A stretch of DNA of 64,000 bases, taken from Arbacia lixula (lineage: Eukaryota; Echinodermata; Echinoidea; Arbacioida; Arbaciidae). Below, piece after piece: positions 29,309 to 63,393 of the stretch. Under the pieces are notes generated by a model. It was given only the letters and a program-made list of their open reading frames with translations, made no database searches and had not been told where the DNA came from. Each line of letters starts with the position of its first letter. Within the stretch, counting starts at the first letter, position 1. The position numbers were made by a program, and so were the translations under genes. Location: positions 6,069,723-6,133,722 of the forward strand of contig OZ022589.1 in NCBI GenBank assembly GCA_963669155.1, written 5' to 3'.

Positions 29309-30660
29309 ATATTTTTTTTTTTACATATTTTTGCCCCAATGGGCAAGTTTATTTACAAAAAATGAACACGTTTACAGAAGTCAAATCATATAGATTATTC
29401 AAACAAATACATTATTCAAACAAATGTTTCAACATACTCCATTTCAAAGTAAAATCTGTCATTTTCCCATTCATAACATAAATATAACATTCATCTAAAT
29501 AATAAGTTTGTATTACCTTCTGAATCTTCTTAAAATCGGGTACAGTCTTGTTCAATCTCGAGAAGTATAATTGTTGTTTTACTAAAATGATAATACAATT
29601 TAAGGCATCATTTCGCTTTTCTTTATATCCAAACAAAATATTCTGTGGAGTAAATTTAAGAACAAACCTAGGAGATGATATCCACGTTTCTATTTTACTC
29701 CAAATATTTCTACTAAAATTACAGAAGTAAAAAAGGTGTTAAATTGTTTCCTTTACAGTATAACAAAATGTACAGTACTCGGTATTGGTGATCTTTAGTT
29801 TGAATAAAGTATCATTTAAAAACACAATTCTGTTGAAAACTTTGTATTGGAAATACTTTATCCGAATGTTGGTTGTGAATCTGAAGATCATCCTATTAAA
29901 TTCTGGTATTTTAGTGTGATCCAAAAGAATATTTGAATTTTTTTCCCATTTTGTTGCAATGGTTTTGGCAGAATCTTTAATTCCTATCAAAAGTCTGTAT
30001 ATGCTTTTACATCCCTTTTTATCACGTATTATAGGAGAAATATAAGGTATAACAAATGGTTCACATATTCTATGAGCTAGGTTTTGAAATTTTTGATTAA
30101 ACACACATCTTAGAGCCTGAGAAATTGAAAAATATTCCAGAACATTGACTTTTACACCGAACTTAGTTTCACATTCAGTTAAAGATATGATATTTCCTTC
30201 TCGGTCTATTAAATCATTAATAAATCGTATACCCTTTTCCTGCCAGTGTTTAAAATAAACAGACCTTCCATCTATTTGTATTCTACTATTTTTCCATAAA
30301 GGTTGCGCTAACCAATTTATATTTTCGGATTTTTTAAATATCAAAAATAGCATGGCAAAAAATTCTTTCCAAAAAGGATTACTAATCTTTTCCGATATGT
30401 TATGAAAATATTCATCCCCATAAAAAAGGTGGAAAGGCTGTCCTAAAGAAAATCCTAACAGACATTCTACGTCATCACATTTTCTTAATAGAATTCTTCT
30501 TAACCATGTCAATTTTAATGCTTTATTAAAACAATCCACATCGATCATTTTCAATCCCCCTTCCTCGTATGAACCAAGTATTTGTTCCCTACTAATTTTA
30601 TCTGGTTTTCCATTCCATACAAATTGAAAATGTATATTTAGTAAAACCTGTCTATAAATA
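29309..30660 (-). mobile_element. 5'-truncated Tx1/L1-like non-LTR retrotransposon
   Basis: The minus strand encodes the region after the reverse-transcriptase core of an L1/Tx1-type ORF2. It opens with FQFVWNGKPDKISREQ and EEGGLKMIDVDCFNKALKLTWLRR, continues through NPFWKEFF, SIYRLLIGIKD and FNRIVFLNDTLFK, and reaches a Cys-containing CTFCY segment. One in-frame TAA at 29739-29741 interrupts the frame; the same frame then stays open to a normal end at 29412. A poly-T run at 29312-29322 is the poly-A tail on the minus strand. The RT palm, endonuclease and ORF1 are missing, so it is a dead 5' truncation. The 5' junction near 30660 is approximate. Confidence 0.82.
29412..30660 (-). pseudogene. 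Tx1/L1-like ORF2 C-terminal fragment with a nonsense codon
   Basis: Coding remnant of the element above. Codons read through about 310 residues, a stop at 29739-29741, then about 108 more residues in the same frame to the natural stop. The single lesion and lack of frameshifts imply a fairly young insertion. Residues N-terminal of GIYRQVLLNIHFQF come from flanking sequence, not the element. Confidence 0.75.
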
Positions 30661-30689
30661 CCACTTATGTTATAACAATATACAATATA

Positions 30690-30835
30690 ACAATAATATG
30701 CAGGTGGTCTTGATGTACAGAATACTTGCATGCATGTTTCAACAGTAGTCTTTATAGACAGGTGGTCTTTATAAACAGGGGATAGATAGATACTTCTTAT
30801 AGACAGGTGATCTTCCTTTATACACAATTGGTAGC
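30690..30835. repeat. Short degenerate tandem motif
   Basis: Several copies of tatagacaggtggtctt-like sequence occur at about 30708, 30748, 30765 and 30798. Confidence 0.55.
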
Positions 30836-31484
30836 TCATACAATTTTCACTGCATATGATAAGTGAGACACCATGGGTTAAGATTAGTATAGGTCAGTAG
30901 TAGCAGATGTCAAATACATTCTCAAAACAAGCCATATGGTCCCAGATATAGCCATCTGTGTAAGGTGCGTATCCAACACGCATCCATAGACAGTGCACAG
31001 TGTAATTACACACAATCATCACACACTTGTCTTTTTCTCCTCAAGATCGCATGGGACATTATGTTCAGGCAGACGCAAGCACTTGAAATGGAGAAAGAAT
31101 TGATGTGCTCCTCTCCTAACTTGATTTGCCACATCCACCGTTGGACTCATTCATAATTTGCAAGTCCCTGCATGTAATGGATGCCCCCAAGCAATGATGT
31201 GAGCCCCGTTCATATCATAAAGTTAACCTCCCCTCTTAGTGTGTAGAAATGTTGTGTGCGCCCGTCACTTGCGTGCAGCAAAGTGTGATTGGATGAGGTC
31301 TCTTGCGCCCCGTATCAATCTCAACCAATGAAATACTATTAGTGGTGTATGTTTGTTGGATATCTTTAGTCTATATTGATATTATTATAGACCTTGTTGT
31401 TATTCCTCTGGCGTTTTTCAAGTTGAAGTTCAAATTCAAGGATGTACATGATATATGTATTGATTATCATTGGGTTATTATCAG

Positions 31485-58702: not shown

Positions 58703-58796
58703 TTTAAAGGGATAGTTCACCCTGAAATAATTTTGGTTTCATTAAAAGGAGACACATAAAAGAAACATATCAGTGAAGGTTTGACGAAAATCGGTC
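58703..58796. mobile_element. Foldback MITE, family C, left part of a split copy
   Basis: Matches the left arm of the 3354 copy (tttaaagggatagttcaccc ... gacgaaaatcggtc) and stops exactly where the CR1-like element's 5' end begins. Confidence 0.9.
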
Positions 58797-58960
58797 TGTG
58801 TGTGTGTGTGTGTGCCAGTGTGTGTGCTTGGCCAGTCTGTGTCTTCCAAATCACACTTAAAATTTCACCTTTAGGCTTCAATTTTACTGAACATTTTTGC
58901 TTGCAGTAGATCTCTTTTACACCTGCAGACACCTGTGGACTATGATTTGGGGAAAAATTA

Positions 58961-59167
58961 TTGCCTGGAACTGTTCAGAACTGCAAGAGTTAATTACTAA
59001 CCTTGTTTGTTTGGTGCTAACTCCATACATGTAATGCTCATCATGTACTTCAAATCAACCTACATGGACAACTGTTGCTGGATGCTTCAATTGTGGAGTG
59101 CACATTCTTCTTCTATGGACAAAAGATTTGCCTGGAACTGTTCAGAACTGCAAGAGTTAATTACTAA
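58961..59167. repeat. Partial 167-bp tandem repeat in the element's 5' leader
   Basis: A 40-base identical block (starts ttgcctggaactgttcagaa) lies at 58961-59000 and again at 59128-59167. Tandem 5' repeats in non-LTR elements can carry promoter activity; that role is inferred. Confidence 0.88.
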
Positions 59168-59185
59168 TCTTAATTCCCATTATTC

Positions 59186-62100
59186 ATGAACCATTTAATG
59201 GCACAGCAGCCAACCACGATGCCATATGTATTGTTTCTACGCTTTGTGATATTGTTATATACTATTTCATCATTAGCCATCATCTCGAGACCAACACTTT
59301 CATTAAGTGGAGATGTGGAAATCAATCCTGGTCCGGCCAGACCCCCGAAATTTCCATGTGGGGAGTGTGGTAGAGCATGTGCGGATTACAGAGGGGCAAA
59401 GTCCAGTATCTTGTGTGAATCATGCGACACGTGGTACCACGCGGACTGTGTTGGTATTCGTGCATCCTTTCTGTCCCTTCTAGGGAGATCAGAATTGCCC
59501 TGGGAATGCTGCAAATGCGGCTTACCAAACCCGTCGACGAGCCTGTCTGAATCCTTTGCGACAACAGGGTCTTCAGAAAAGGAATCGTCCTGTTCTTCAA
59601 CCAGCACAGGCAACACCACACATAACTCAGATCTACCAGGTTCCCCACTTGCATCATCGACTCCATCCAAAAGGCAAATCAGTCACGGTCCTAGACCCCC
59701 AAAATTTCCATGTGGGGAGTGTGGAAGAGCATGTACGGATTACGGAGGGGCAAAGTCCAGCATCCTGTGTGAATCATGCGACACGTGGTACCACGCGGAC
59801 TGTGTCGGTATACGTGCATCCTTTCTGTCCCTTCTAGGGAGATCAGAATTGCCCTGGGAGTGCTGCAAATGTGGCTTGCCAAACCCGTCATCGAGCCTGT
59901 TTGAATCCTTTACAGTAGCAGGGTCTTCAGAAAATGAATCGACCTGTTTTTCAACCAGCACAGGTAATACTACACCCAACTCAGAACTACCAGGTTCCCC
60001 ACATGCATCATTGACTCCATCCAAAAGGCAAAATGCTTGTAAGTCCAACCTGAGAACCTTGACCATAAATTTTCAGAGTATACTCTCCAAACGGGAAGAG
60101 TTTTGGAGTCTTATCGATGCAACCAAGCCCGATATCATCCACGGCTGTGAAACATGGCTGAAACCAGGTATAGGAAATGGTGAAATATTCCCGCCGGGAT
60201 ACAAGCTGTACAGAAAGGACAGGAAAGATGGATATGGAGGGGTACTAGTGGCCGTCACGGACAGTTTGAACAGTCATGAGATTACAATGCATGGTGAATC
60301 CGAGCTCATTGCAGTCAAGGTATGTAATGGCAAACATGATGTGATATTTGCTTCTGTTTATCGACCACCGAATAGTGACCAAGGGTACATGGACAATCTA
60401 AGCCAATCCATCACAGATATTTGTTTAGCCAACCCACGTTCAGCGGTATGGATCTGTGGTGACATGAACCTACCAGATATAAACTGGGAAACTGAACAAA
60501 TTATGTCTCATCAGTACAGGCAGTCAATCAATGAGTCCTATCTTCAAGCTCTTGCAAACATGGGACTGGAACAGGTTGTAAACTTTCCAACAAGAAGAGA
60601 TAACATCTTGGACTTAGTTTGCACCAATCGTCCATCTCTAGTCAGGCTATGCCAACCCATGCCAGGACTCAGTGATCATGATGTTATATTCATGGAATTG
60701 ACTATCGAGGCTGTTAAGCATAAACCAATCAGACGAGAAATATTCCTATGGAAAAGAGCAGACTTGGAAAGTATTCACTCAGATGCCAAAGCATGGTCAG
60801 ACCAGTTCATGGCCAATTATGATGTCTCCACTCCAGTTGAGGAATTGTTCAATGAAATCCATCATTCACTTGAAAGAATTGTACGTGCTCATGTACCTTC
60901 CAAGATGACCTCTTCGAGAGTTAACCAATGCTGGTTTAACACGTCCACCAAACGTATGTGTCGCAAGAAAAACCGAGCCTACAGGAAAGCTAGGCACATA
61001 TCAAGCAAACCATCCAGTAGTAAAAAGGCAAAGGCAAAGGCCTGGGATCGCTATCATGAAATCAAGAGGAACACTCAGAAGGCATGCCGGCAAACCTACA
61101 ACAAGTACCTTGAAGACATAATCAACAGTGACCCAGGAAGTAATAAACGCCTTGGAGCTTTAGTCAAATCTCTCCGTAATGACCAGACTGGAGTGGCTCC
61201 TCTGAAAGAAGGGAATATCTTCCACTGTGACCCTAAACAGAAGGCAAACATCCTGAACAAGTACTTTTCGTCTGTGTTTGGCACCGATGGCCAACATGAG
61301 ACACTTCCTGATCTGGGACCAAGCCCATACTCGGACATGGATGACATACAAGTAACCACAGCAGGGGTACAGAAGTTGCTGAAAAACTTGAAAGACCATA
61401 AAGCTACGGGACCAGATGGCATCTCGGCGAAAGTACTGAAGGAGACTGCTGAACAGATCTCGCCTGCAATTACATTGCTCTTCCAGGCTTCCATCAATCA
61501 AGGCTGTATACCATCTGCATGGAAGAAAGCTTTAGTTGTTCCCATCTTTAAGAAGGGTTGTAAGTCAACTCCAGCCAATTACAGGCCAGTCTCCCTCACT
61601 GCTATCCTGTCTAAACTCTGCGAGCACATTATGCATTGTGCCATCATTCATCACCTCATTGAGCATGGCATTCTTTCTGACAGTCAGCATGGATTCAGGA
61701 AGCGTCGTTCATGCGAGACACAGCTGATACTCACCATCAATGACCTAGCAAAAGGACTGGAAGATAAAGAACAGATTGATGTCATATTGCTAGATTTTGC
61801 TAAGGCCTTTGACAAGGTTTCTCACCAACGACTTCTCCTTAAGGCCAGGTACTATGGTATAAGCGGCCTTACCCTTCAGTGGATTGAAGACTTTCTTACT
61901 GGGCGAACTCAACAAGTCATGTTGGAGGGCCAAATCAGTAATGAGATAGGAGTCACATCGGGCGTGCCACAAGGTAGTGTCTTGGGACCCTTACTATTCC
62001 TAATTTACATCAATGACCTACCAGATGGCATATATCACTCAAAATCCCGCCTATATGCTGATGATTGTCTCCTATACAAGACTATCAAAACACACCAGGA

Positions 62101-62860
62101 TTGTAACCAGCTCCAAGAAGATCTTGCTAGGCTTCAAGAGTGGGAGGCCAAGTGGAAAATGGAGTTCCACCCTGCCAAATGTCAAGTCCTGCGAGTGACC
62201 AACAAGAGGAACCCAATAGCTGGCCAATACAACATACATAATCATCGTCTGGAGGAAGTCAGCTATGCAAAGTATCTTGGGTTGCACATCGACAAGAAAC
62301 TCAACTTCAATACCCATGTCGACGTCACCGTCAAGAAGGCAAACTCTGTCTGTGCATTCCTACGACGAAATCTAAAACACCTCAATCGCAGGGTCAAAGA
62401 AGCTAGCTACAATATGTACATTAGACCGGTGGTGGAATATGCTGCAACAGCATGGGACCCACACACCCAGAAAAATGTCAGCAAGATCGAGATGGTACAG
62501 CGAAGGAGTGCACGATACGTCACTGGTGACTTCCATCAAACTAGCAGTGTCACTGCAATGCTGGCCCAGCTGAAATGGGCGTCGCTTGCCAGCAGACGAC
62601 TACAAAGCCGGCTTGCCATGATGTACCGCATCCGCTCTGATCTTGTGGACATCAACTGGCGACTACACCTTATAGAAGCAACATCCTCAACCCGTGGACA
62701 TGGATCCCGTTTCATCACTCCCAAGAGCACCAACCAAGTCTACAGCCAGTCCTTCTTCCCCAGAACTGTCAAGGACTGGAACAGCTTACAGATTGATCCA
62801 GCCAAATCACCCTCCCTCGAGGCATTTAAGGCTTCGTTGAGGGAGGTGTATACACCATAG
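59186..62860 (+). CDS. Retrotransposon polyprotein: leader-2A-PHD-PHD-endonuclease-RT
   Basis: An uninterrupted 1224-residue protein. Residues 13-34 form a hydrophobic leader. Residues 42-50 (GDVEINPGP) are a canonical 2A ribosome-skipping motif, predicting release of a 49-residue peptide and a downstream protein beginning with Pro50. Two tandem PHD-type zinc fingers follow (first Cys at 58 and 176), each in a 118-residue duplicated block. The apurinic-like endonuclease shows E322, GDMN with D426, and SDHD with H498. The reverse transcriptase shows LLDFAKAFD (D870) and the YADD catalytic box (957-960). The end matches the CR1-type PRTVKDWNSL...FKASL motif. All motifs are intact, so the copy may be competent. 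Start choice: this ATG gives the complete leader plus 2A; a Met at residue 5 or 12 is an alternative. Confidence 0.93.
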   Translation: MNHLMAQQPTTMPYVLFLRFVILLYTISSLAIISRPTLSLSGDVEINPGPARPPKFPCGECGRACADYRGAKSSILCESCDTWYHADCVGIRASFLSLLGRSELPWECCKCGLPNPSTSLSESFATTGSSEKESSCSSTSTGNTTHNSDLPGSPLASSTPSKRQISHGPRPPKFPCGECGRACTDYGGAKSSILCESCDTWYHADCVGIRASFLSLLGRSELPWECCKCGLPNPSSSLFESFTVAGSSENESTCFSTSTGNTTPNSELPGSPHASLTPSKRQNACKSNLRTLTINFQSILSKREEFWSLIDATKPDIIHGCETWLKPGIGNGEIFPPGYKLYRKDRKDGYGGVLVAVTDSLNSHEITMHGESELIAVKVCNGKHDVIFASVYRPPNSDQGYMDNLSQSITDICLANPRSAVWICGDMNLPDINWETEQIMSHQYRQSINESYLQALANMGLEQVVNFPTRRDNILDLVCTNRPSLVRLCQPMPGLSDHDVIFMELTIEAVKHKPIRREIFLWKRADLESIHSDAKAWSDQFMANYDVSTPVEELFNEIHHSLERIVRAHVPSKMTSSRVNQCWFNTSTKRMCRKKNRAYRKARHISSKPSSSKKAKAKAWDRYHEIKRNTQKACRQTYNKYLEDIINSDPGSNKRLGALVKSLRNDQTGVAPLKEGNIFHCDPKQKANILNKYFSSVFGTDGQHETLPDLGPSPYSDMDDIQVTTAGVQKLLKNLKDHKATGPDGISAKVLKETAEQISPAITLLFQASINQGCIPSAWKKALVVPIFKKGCKSTPANYRPVSLTAILSKLCEHIMHCAIIHHLIEHGILSDSQHGFRKRRSCETQLILTINDLAKGLEDKEQIDVILLDFAKAFDKVSHQRLLLKARYYGISGLTLQWIEDFLTGRTQQVMLEGQISNEIGVTSGVPQGSVLGPLLFLIYINDLPDGIYHSKSRLYADDCLLYKTIKTHQDCNQLQEDLARLQEWEAKWKMEFHPAKCQVLRVTNKRNPIAGQYNIHNHRLEEVSYAKYLGLHIDKKLNFNTHVDVTVKKANSVCAFLRRNLKHLNRRVKEASYNMYIRPVVEYAATAWDPHTQKNVSKIEMVQRRSARYVTGDFHQTSSVTAMLAQLKWASLASRRLQSRLAMMYRIRSDLVDINWRLHLIEATSSTRGHGSRFITPKSTNQVYSQSFFPRTVKDWNSLQIDPAKSPSLEAFKASLREVYTP
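59312..59335 (+). promoter_or_regulatory. 2A-like ribosome-skipping site
   Basis: Codons for DVEINPGP (residues 43-50), matching the D-V/I-E-x-N-P-G-P consensus. Skipping would occur between Gly49 and Pro50. Confidence 0.92.
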
Positions 62861-63020
62861 TGACCCCCAAGAAAGGCAGTCTTTTTACTAGCACAATTTG
62901 TACATAATGTGCACTTATTTTTATTCAATGAATCTGGCTGGCGCACACATATGGTGCTCACACATGCACACAGTGCGCAATCTTCAGTAATGAAGCAGCA
63001 CTCTACTGGAAGAAGAAGAA

Positions 63021-63393
63021 GTGACGTCATGTGCGAGGTGCCCTTCCATATGTTGTGTACTACTTTTTTCATAAATTGTCTTTTTTGTATGTTCTTTGAT
63101 GAAGGAATACATTCTTTTCATAGTGATATGTGTGTAGAAATATGTGTCTAATGATATATAAAACCCACAGGTGAAATGGAAAATATCCTTTTGAGAAAAT
63201 TGACAGTTTCCAAAAAAGTTGTACACAACACATGGAAGAGGACCTTGCACGTGATGTCACAAAATCAAAGCTCTGAAATCAAATAACTTTCTTTTCCTTT
63301 GACCGATTTTCGTCAAACCTTTACTAATATGTGTTTTCATATGTCTCATCTTATTGAAACCAAAATAATTTCAGAGTGAACTATCGCTTTAAA
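63021..63393. mobile_element. Foldback MITE, family C, right part of the split copy
   Basis: Resumes at gtgacgtcatgtgcgaggtg and runs to the right inverted end (gtgaactatcgctttaaa), matching 3488-3854. Confidence 0.92.

Follow-up and report, generated by a model that had tools for sequence, protein, structure and literature searches.

A hydrophobic leader ahead of a 2A core in a single-ORF LINE of Arbacia lixula, and related junctions in other LINE families

The element, its insertion site and its single ORF

We identified a CR1/L2-like LINE in the window, the 64,000-nucleotide stretch of Arbacia lixula contig OZ022589.1 that was analysed, where it interrupts a MITE-like repeat (Table 1). Compared with one empty-site copy of this repeat (L101), a target-site duplication is not apparent and approximately 36 bp of the target repeat have been replaced. 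L101, which is uninterrupted, has a left arm that aligns at 87% with the left part of the broken repeat; in two other copies (L102 and L103) this arm is missing. In the genome searched (607 Mb in 590 contigs), the MITE-like repeat was found at 39 other places at 84-89% among 40 scored of 6884 candidates, which points to a large family; 38 of these 39 matches span most of the 379-base query. Among mitochondrial genetic codes, the one of echinoderms suits the cox1 of this genome best, though narrowly (502.1 bits, against 501.3 for code 4, 496.6 for code 13 and 493.7 for code 5; under code 2, three stops appear). The window also includes, at 29739-30893 on the reverse strand, an open frame of 384 aa that weakly matches the reverse-transcriptase zinc-binding region (E 0.013, below the cut-off) and is probably an old LINE remnant.

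Table 1. Features of the LINE and of the interrupted repeat, in window coordinates.
Feature	Position	Strand	Basis or remark
MITE-like repeat broken by the element, left part	58703..58796	.	Pairs as inverted repeat with 63301-63393
CR1/L2-like LINE, ~4.2 kb	58797..63020	+	Comparison with one empty-site copy (L101)
5' UTR direct repeat (92%), copy 1	58954..59004	+	Repeat comparison
5' UTR direct repeat (92%), copy 2	59121-59171	+	Repeat comparison
Upstream ORF, 51 codons	59034..59189	+	TGA overlaps first ATG (ATGA at 59186)
Single ORF, 1,224 aa	59186..62860	+	Uninterrupted translation
Leader, residues 1-42	59186..59311	+	Starts also possible at 59198 and 59219
Hydrophobic stretch, residues 13-34, R19 inside	59222..59287	+	Highest hydropathy in the ORF
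2A/StopGo core DVEINPGP, residues 43-50	59312..59335	+	Translation; predicted skip between G49 and P50
In-frame tandem duplication, period 354 bp	59339..60032	+	Starts just past the 2A; yields two PHD fingers
PHD finger 1	59375..59518	+	Pfam PF00628, E 1e-07, two stretches, best residues 64-111
PHD finger 2	~59729-59872	+	Placed from the 354-bp period
APE-type endonuclease	60068..60688	+	Pfam PF14529, residues 387-501, E 1.5e-12
Reverse transcriptase	61550..62290	+	Pfam PF00078, residues 789-1035, E 5.4e-32
MITE-like repeat broken by the element, right part	63021..63393	.	L101 comparison and genome matches

The initial annotation had described a CR1-like ORF with its whole arrangement intact, and Pfam agrees, placing PHD, endonuclease and reverse transcriptase (RT) within the uninterrupted frame. 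An APE endonuclease and an RT thus share one ORF with PHD sequence in front, as is characteristic of single-ORF LINEs of the CR1/L2 type; a PF03372 match at residues 295-487 of the ORF is below its cut-off. These domains, instead of an NLR gene, lie downstream of the 2A. The 354-bp units of the duplication, compared over 113 codons, have a dN of 0.061 and a dS of 0.21, which suggests that constraint kept both PHD fingers. The second unit is preceded by ISHGP (59678-59692), which aligns by eye with the INPGP of the 2A, and the duplication may have taken along the tail of the 2A, which was later lost. LINEs of CR1 subgroup 6 and L2 subgroup 4 likewise have a single ORF with N-terminal PHD, endonuclease and RT (PMC4120745), but the window element differs from them in its duplicated PHD. 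A term search of the main text of PMC4120745 gave no mention of signal peptides, of transmembrane or hydrophobic sequence, or of 2A peptides, oligopeptides or skipping. A coupling of the upstream ORF's stop to the main start through the ATGA at 59186 was considered and dropped; nothing like it is present in the 400 bases upstream of the relative L002.

Four further copies (L005, L017, L023 and L026) have 97.7-99.8% DNA identity to the element, among 38 scored of 6963 candidates. All are 5'-truncated before the leader, at least four such copies thus being present, and they have a common 3' end at the equivalent of 63021-63025, after GAA repeats. The high identity together with the common 3' end indicates that the family of the element is young. 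No second close copy with a leader was found in a search with residues 1-115, in which all 106 candidates were scored.

The leader and 2A core of the window copy

The translation of 59186-59335 is MNHLMAQQPTTMPYVLFLRFVILLYTISSLAIISRPTLSLSGDVEINPGP. It has three possible start codons, M1, M5 and M12, of which M1 and M5 are in poor start-codon context, so that the position of residue 1 is uncertain. Residues 13-34 had been annotated as strongly hydrophobic and residues 42-50 as a perfect 2A, and both descriptions stand. The top 19-residue Kyte-Doolittle window of the entire ORF covers residues 15-33 (2.35), each of the twelve top-scoring windows begins at residues 9-21, and the best value beyond residue 50 is 1.29; R19 is the one charged residue within the stretch. 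Residues 42-50 read GDVEINPGP, in which the octamer D43-P50 is a canonical D(V/I)ExNPGP core and the sole full 2A core in the six frames of the window. Eight residues separate the hydrophobic stretch from the core, which is the abutting arrangement of the SpNLR2A type. When the 42 leader residues were shuffled, an equally strong 13-mer arose in 175 of 2000 cases; for the window leader alone, the evidence is therefore its composition and position.

The hexapeptide before the core, TLSLSG, ends in SG and contains two Leu, against four in the LLLLSG class; in an NLR 2A, changes in the Leu tract lowered skipping (PMC4981915), and the departure counts against the reading proposed below. Viral StopGo sequences of LLLLSG-like classes likewise combine D(V/I)ExNPGP with an L-containing context ending in SG (PMC12846837), whereas the sequence here belongs to a retroelement. 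According to the same source, L-rich 2A context classes end in A/S/C-G before p12 (PMC12846837).

The nearest family consists of L002 and L055, with 68% identity over residues 20-114. Each retains a hydrophobic leader, with a Met 38 codons ahead of a DVESNPGP core, and PHD sequence follows the core. L002 appears to be single-PHD, since its long match starts at query residue 169 with its 2A directly before. The initial annotation had looked to sister copies for a conserved 2A core; this expectation holds for L002 and L055, which keep both leader and core, but finds no counterpart in the four close copies, in which truncation falls before the leader. In an ungapped comparison of the window leader with that of L002, 16 of 46 residues agree, and changes are seen at 26 of 35 synonymous and at 50 of 103 non-synonymous sites (p 0.054), with synonymous change near saturation. 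Selection on the window family's own leader is only hinted at by this comparison.

2A junctions, leader layouts and selection in related families

Beyond what the initial annotation had noted, we found the arrangement in many families of this genome, most of those examined having long leaders in which the hydrophobic stretch and the 2A are apart, and several having non-canonical cores. Of the 62 hits that the search of the genome with residues 1-115 gave, 41 were read at the junction; the remainder are 20 further hits and the window's own second PHD unit. Many of the 41 junctions are near-identical copies, so that independent cases are fewer. NPGP is kept in 40 of the 41 junctions; a canonical D(V/I)ExNPGP is present in 15, and other residues precede an intact NPGP in 25 (DTE 11, DIS 4, GLE 4, QIE 2, DIQ 2, QVE 1 and YIE 1, with the QIE cores in L070 and L071). 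The DTE, GLE, QIE/QVE, DIQ and DIS cores fall outside even (D/G/C/N)(V/I)ExNPGP. NPGP lies at differing distances from the first PHD cysteine pair in these junctions, and is therefore not merely the start of the PHD fold.

Simple decay was considered as an explanation of the non-canonical cores and was rejected in view of the DIS copies, the long open frames and the grouping in an RT tree. Four long copies represent the DIS family; their N termini are almost identical, and two of the four have one in-frame stop. Downstream, the pairs of this family differ by 6 synonymous and 2 non-synonymous changes and by 17 and 9, respectively. Open frames of more than 1,000 codons exist for QIE, QVE, GLE, DIQ and DTE copies. 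In the RT tree, which was built from copies of this genome only, with a midpoint root and some long branches, single representatives of the GLE, DIQ, QVE and QIE types group together (100/99). Two junctions do fit decay: L077 has NPRP in place of NPGP, and L078 has the YIE core and a stop approximately 40 residues upstream, and by their sequences both look decayed.

A survey of viral cores names G, C, N, T and V at p12, G at p13 (with G at p12), H at p14, H at p16, and M or W at p19 (PMC12846837). The relatives here have Q at p12, T or L at p13, and Q or S at p14, which are unnamed in section 9 of that source, and the older motif DxExNPGP, quoted in PMC5972666, allows T at p13. This natural series of non-canonical cores, several of them in copies with long open frames, offers a panel for what StopGo needs, above all with regard to E14; in the F2A structure, this residue stacks on rRNA (PMC12846837). 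Should these cores work, retrotransposons would have gone further into StopGo sequence space than viruses.

For the leaders, 15 representatives were hand-picked from the 41 junctions; L069 and L073 come from a single family, and what counts as the first Met in L073 is the first within the sequence piece analysed. A signal-like stretch (13-residue mean hydropathy of at least 1.79) is present in 13 of the 15. Two layouts can be distinguished. In the short-leader layout, that of the window family and L002/L055, 38 codons separate the Met from the core and the stretch is near the 2A. The long-leader layout was found in 13 representatives, with 73-132 residues from the first Met to the core. Eleven of these contain a 13-mer whose mean hydropathy lies between 1.79 and 3.15; it begins within 25 residues of the first Met in 10 of the 11 and follows a second Met in L011; the GLEL family, with two representatives, has no clear N-terminal hydrophobic stretch (0.81 and 0.97). 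Counting all long leaders, the best window is within 25 residues of the first Met in 12 of 13, two of the 12 being weak. Such early placement has a chance probability of 1.8e-5 (12/13) or 8e-5 (10/11), assuming independent families, which they are only in part. In the 11 strong long leaders, 63-116 residues lie between stretch and core, so that the stretch is not just 2A context; a second, Leu-rich segment adjoins the core in most long leaders. Shuffles match the best 13-mer in less than 5% of cases for six of the 13 long leaders (L006, L008, L010, L012, L062 and L079), in 7-35% for L011, L027, L065, L075 and L076, in 55% for L073 and in 89% for L069; for the short leader of L002, the figure is 512 of 2000. 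A Pfam scan of 10 long leaders gave nothing over the cut-off, with the best match to V-set at E 0.015, below the cut-off.

Selection was assessed on 10 hand-picked pairs from eight families, all of them outside the window family. Of the differences in the pooled leaders, 20 are synonymous and 16 non-synonymous, although 77% would be expected to be non-synonymous, giving a pN/pS of 0.24 (p 2e-5), or a ratio of 0.29 (p 2.6e-4) with transitions weighted twofold. As a control, the 5' flanks of six pairs were read in three frames and gave 0.81, 1.04 and 0.83 (p 0.21, 0.61 and 0.19); the control omits L065/L066, L079/L080, L073/L074 and L002/L055, which have too little or no comparable flank. The downstream part of the pairs, with a pN/pS of 0.14, is more constrained than the leaders. 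The leader ratio of 0.24-0.29 against non-significant flanks thus indicates that the leaders as a group are coding and constrained, although less than the replicase.

A related LINE that stands outside the junction, representative and pair counts, L048 (C12:8344720), has a hydrophobic start, a canonical 2A and an endonuclease, with a PHD match below the cut-off approximately 109 residues further on.

A proposed working of leader and 2A, and its rivals

Odon et al. 2013 (Mol Biol Evol 30:1955) are said to have found 2As in the Rex1, Crack, L2, L2A, CR1 and Ingi clades, that is, reportedly in APE-type non-LTR retrotransposons and linked to single-ORF elements. Like the element described here, the 2A-bearing retrotransposons of that study are reportedly single-ORF LINEs with the 2A before the replicase. 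StopGo sequences from LINEs of trypanosomes and of the purple sea urchin are also mentioned elsewhere (PMC5972666). The sea urchin NLR 2A likewise has an N-terminal hydrophobic stretch directly before the 2A, and dual targeting by this signal sequence was shown experimentally (PMC4981915, Roulston 2016). The initial annotation had stated that some N-terminal 2As of sea urchin non-LTR elements act as signal sequences when skipping fails; such activity is indeed published, but for NLR proteins, with the LINE 2As as a separate category (PMC4981915). In that system, a 26-aa 2A-like sequence belongs to a host NLR gene, whereas here a retrotransposon replicase follows. LINEs with 2A, single-ORF PHD LINEs and NLR 2A signal sequences are already known separately. 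Among the open-licence papers searched, we found neither a signal-like leader before a LINE 2A across families nor leader selection combined with a LINE 2A, nor these non-canonical cores.

The ORF, its domains, the core, the hydrophobicity, the recurrence and the pooled leader selection are established here. With moderate confidence, we propose that a signal-anchor-like leader is coupled to StopGo, such that skipping would free a hydrophobic peptide and the replicase while the read-through product would be drawn to the ER. At the Gly49-Pro50 bond, most ribosomes would skip. The products would be a hydrophobic peptide, 38-49 residues long according to which start codon is used, and a PHD-PHD-endonuclease-RT replicase that begins with Pro, is made in the cytosol and is able to reach the nucleus. 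In a minority of cases, ribosomes would read through, and the fused protein would keep the signal sequence and be drawn to the ER. The idea in the initial annotation that one mRNA could give three products is right as a possibility. We infer the skipping, the SRP targeting, their proportions and the element's use of the peptide; dual targeting is plausible, and the relatives support it better than the window copy does.

The order of events may differ between the two layouts, given that the ribosome tunnel holds 30-40 residues (PMC2978324). In the short-leader family, 38 to 49 residues would have been made when Gly49 is in the P site. The hydrophobic stretch would then mostly still be in the tunnel, and skipping would release the peptide too early for SRP to bind it, so that skipping and targeting should be alternatives. 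A skip-versus-target scheme was shown for an NLR 2A (PMC4981915). In long leaders, the stretch should leave the tunnel well before the 2A is made, so that docking should come first. The leader would come into contact with SRP and the translocon early enough for an ER-targeted product of 88-132 residues to result and, if skipping survives docking, a cytosolic replicase as well; with some upstream sequences, translocation can interfere with the 2A reaction (PMC2978324). More tentatively, a LINE radiation may encode a secretory-pathway peptide ahead of its 2A in these two layouts, with several lineages on DTE, GLE, QIE/QVE, DIQ and DIS cores, for which function is not known to have been reported.

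The hydrophobic leader could instead be just the upstream tunnel context of the 2A, without targeting, the peptide being released and degraded. We regard this as unlikely, although L-rich hexapeptides are a known 2A context class and a hydrophobic cluster in the tunnel belongs to the F2A mechanism (PMC12846837). In addition, residues that act on 2A lie within approximately 30 aa (PMC2978324), a reach that overlaps residues 15-33 of the window ORF. The stretch of the 11 long leaders, however, is beyond that reach, and it is the second Leu-rich segment that adjoins their 2A, an argument that bears on the relatives and not directly on the short-leader window family. It is distinctly unlikely that the 2A is dead, here or in many relatives, and that the leader stays on the replicase as a membrane anchor or is tolerated there. 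The TLSLSG context of the window core and the non-canonical residues in 25 of the 41 junctions would fit such a loss, but the window core itself is perfect, and the retention of NPGP in all junctions but one amid varying neighbours and PHD spacing is hard to explain without recoding.

Hydropathy alone cannot separate an ER signal from a leader that targets another membrane, for example that of mitochondria, or that is a self-acting membrane peptide. We consider these options very unlikely, since the N termini are by eye plainly hydrophobic and not basic and amphipathic; N-glycosylation sequons in 10 of the 13 long leaders, 7 of the 13 having them outside the last 14 residues before the core, also argue weakly against them. 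That a random hydrophobic 5' extension merely met a random 2A match is extremely improbable. The motif is short and 9% of the shuffles of the window leader equal that leader in strength, but a degenerate DNA pattern encoding D(V/I)ExNPGP occurs 74 times in the 607-Mb genome while its reverse occurs 0 times, the arrangement recurs at the same PHD junction in many families, and the leaders are under selection.

If leader and StopGo do work as proposed, ribosome skipping would let one mRNA yield both the replicase of a LINE and a peptide that is secreted or goes to membranes. This could provide single-ORF LINEs with a substitute for the missing ORF1 and a tie to membranes; a membrane-targeting role has been proposed for the esterase ORF1 of other LINEs (PMC4120745).

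Canonical 2A cores are also present in other surroundings in this genome. Within one 3-Mb stretch (G000 C17:17.99-20.99 Mb) lie 29 of the 74 canonical sites, and at the one place examined there (L099), Death and NACHT coding stretches follow the 2A; the region thus resembles an extensive cluster of NLR genes that carry 2A, such as sea urchin has. DIEPNPGP cores are found in open frames of approximately 255-262 codons in L036 and L060 (C8:3711044 and C13:15794964), the latter without a Pfam match. Further groups of similar short open stretches that end soon past a canonical 2A core occur on C12, C19 and C22; the members on C12 are L043-L047, L049-L054, L058 and L059, with a hydrophobic start in L049 and L050.
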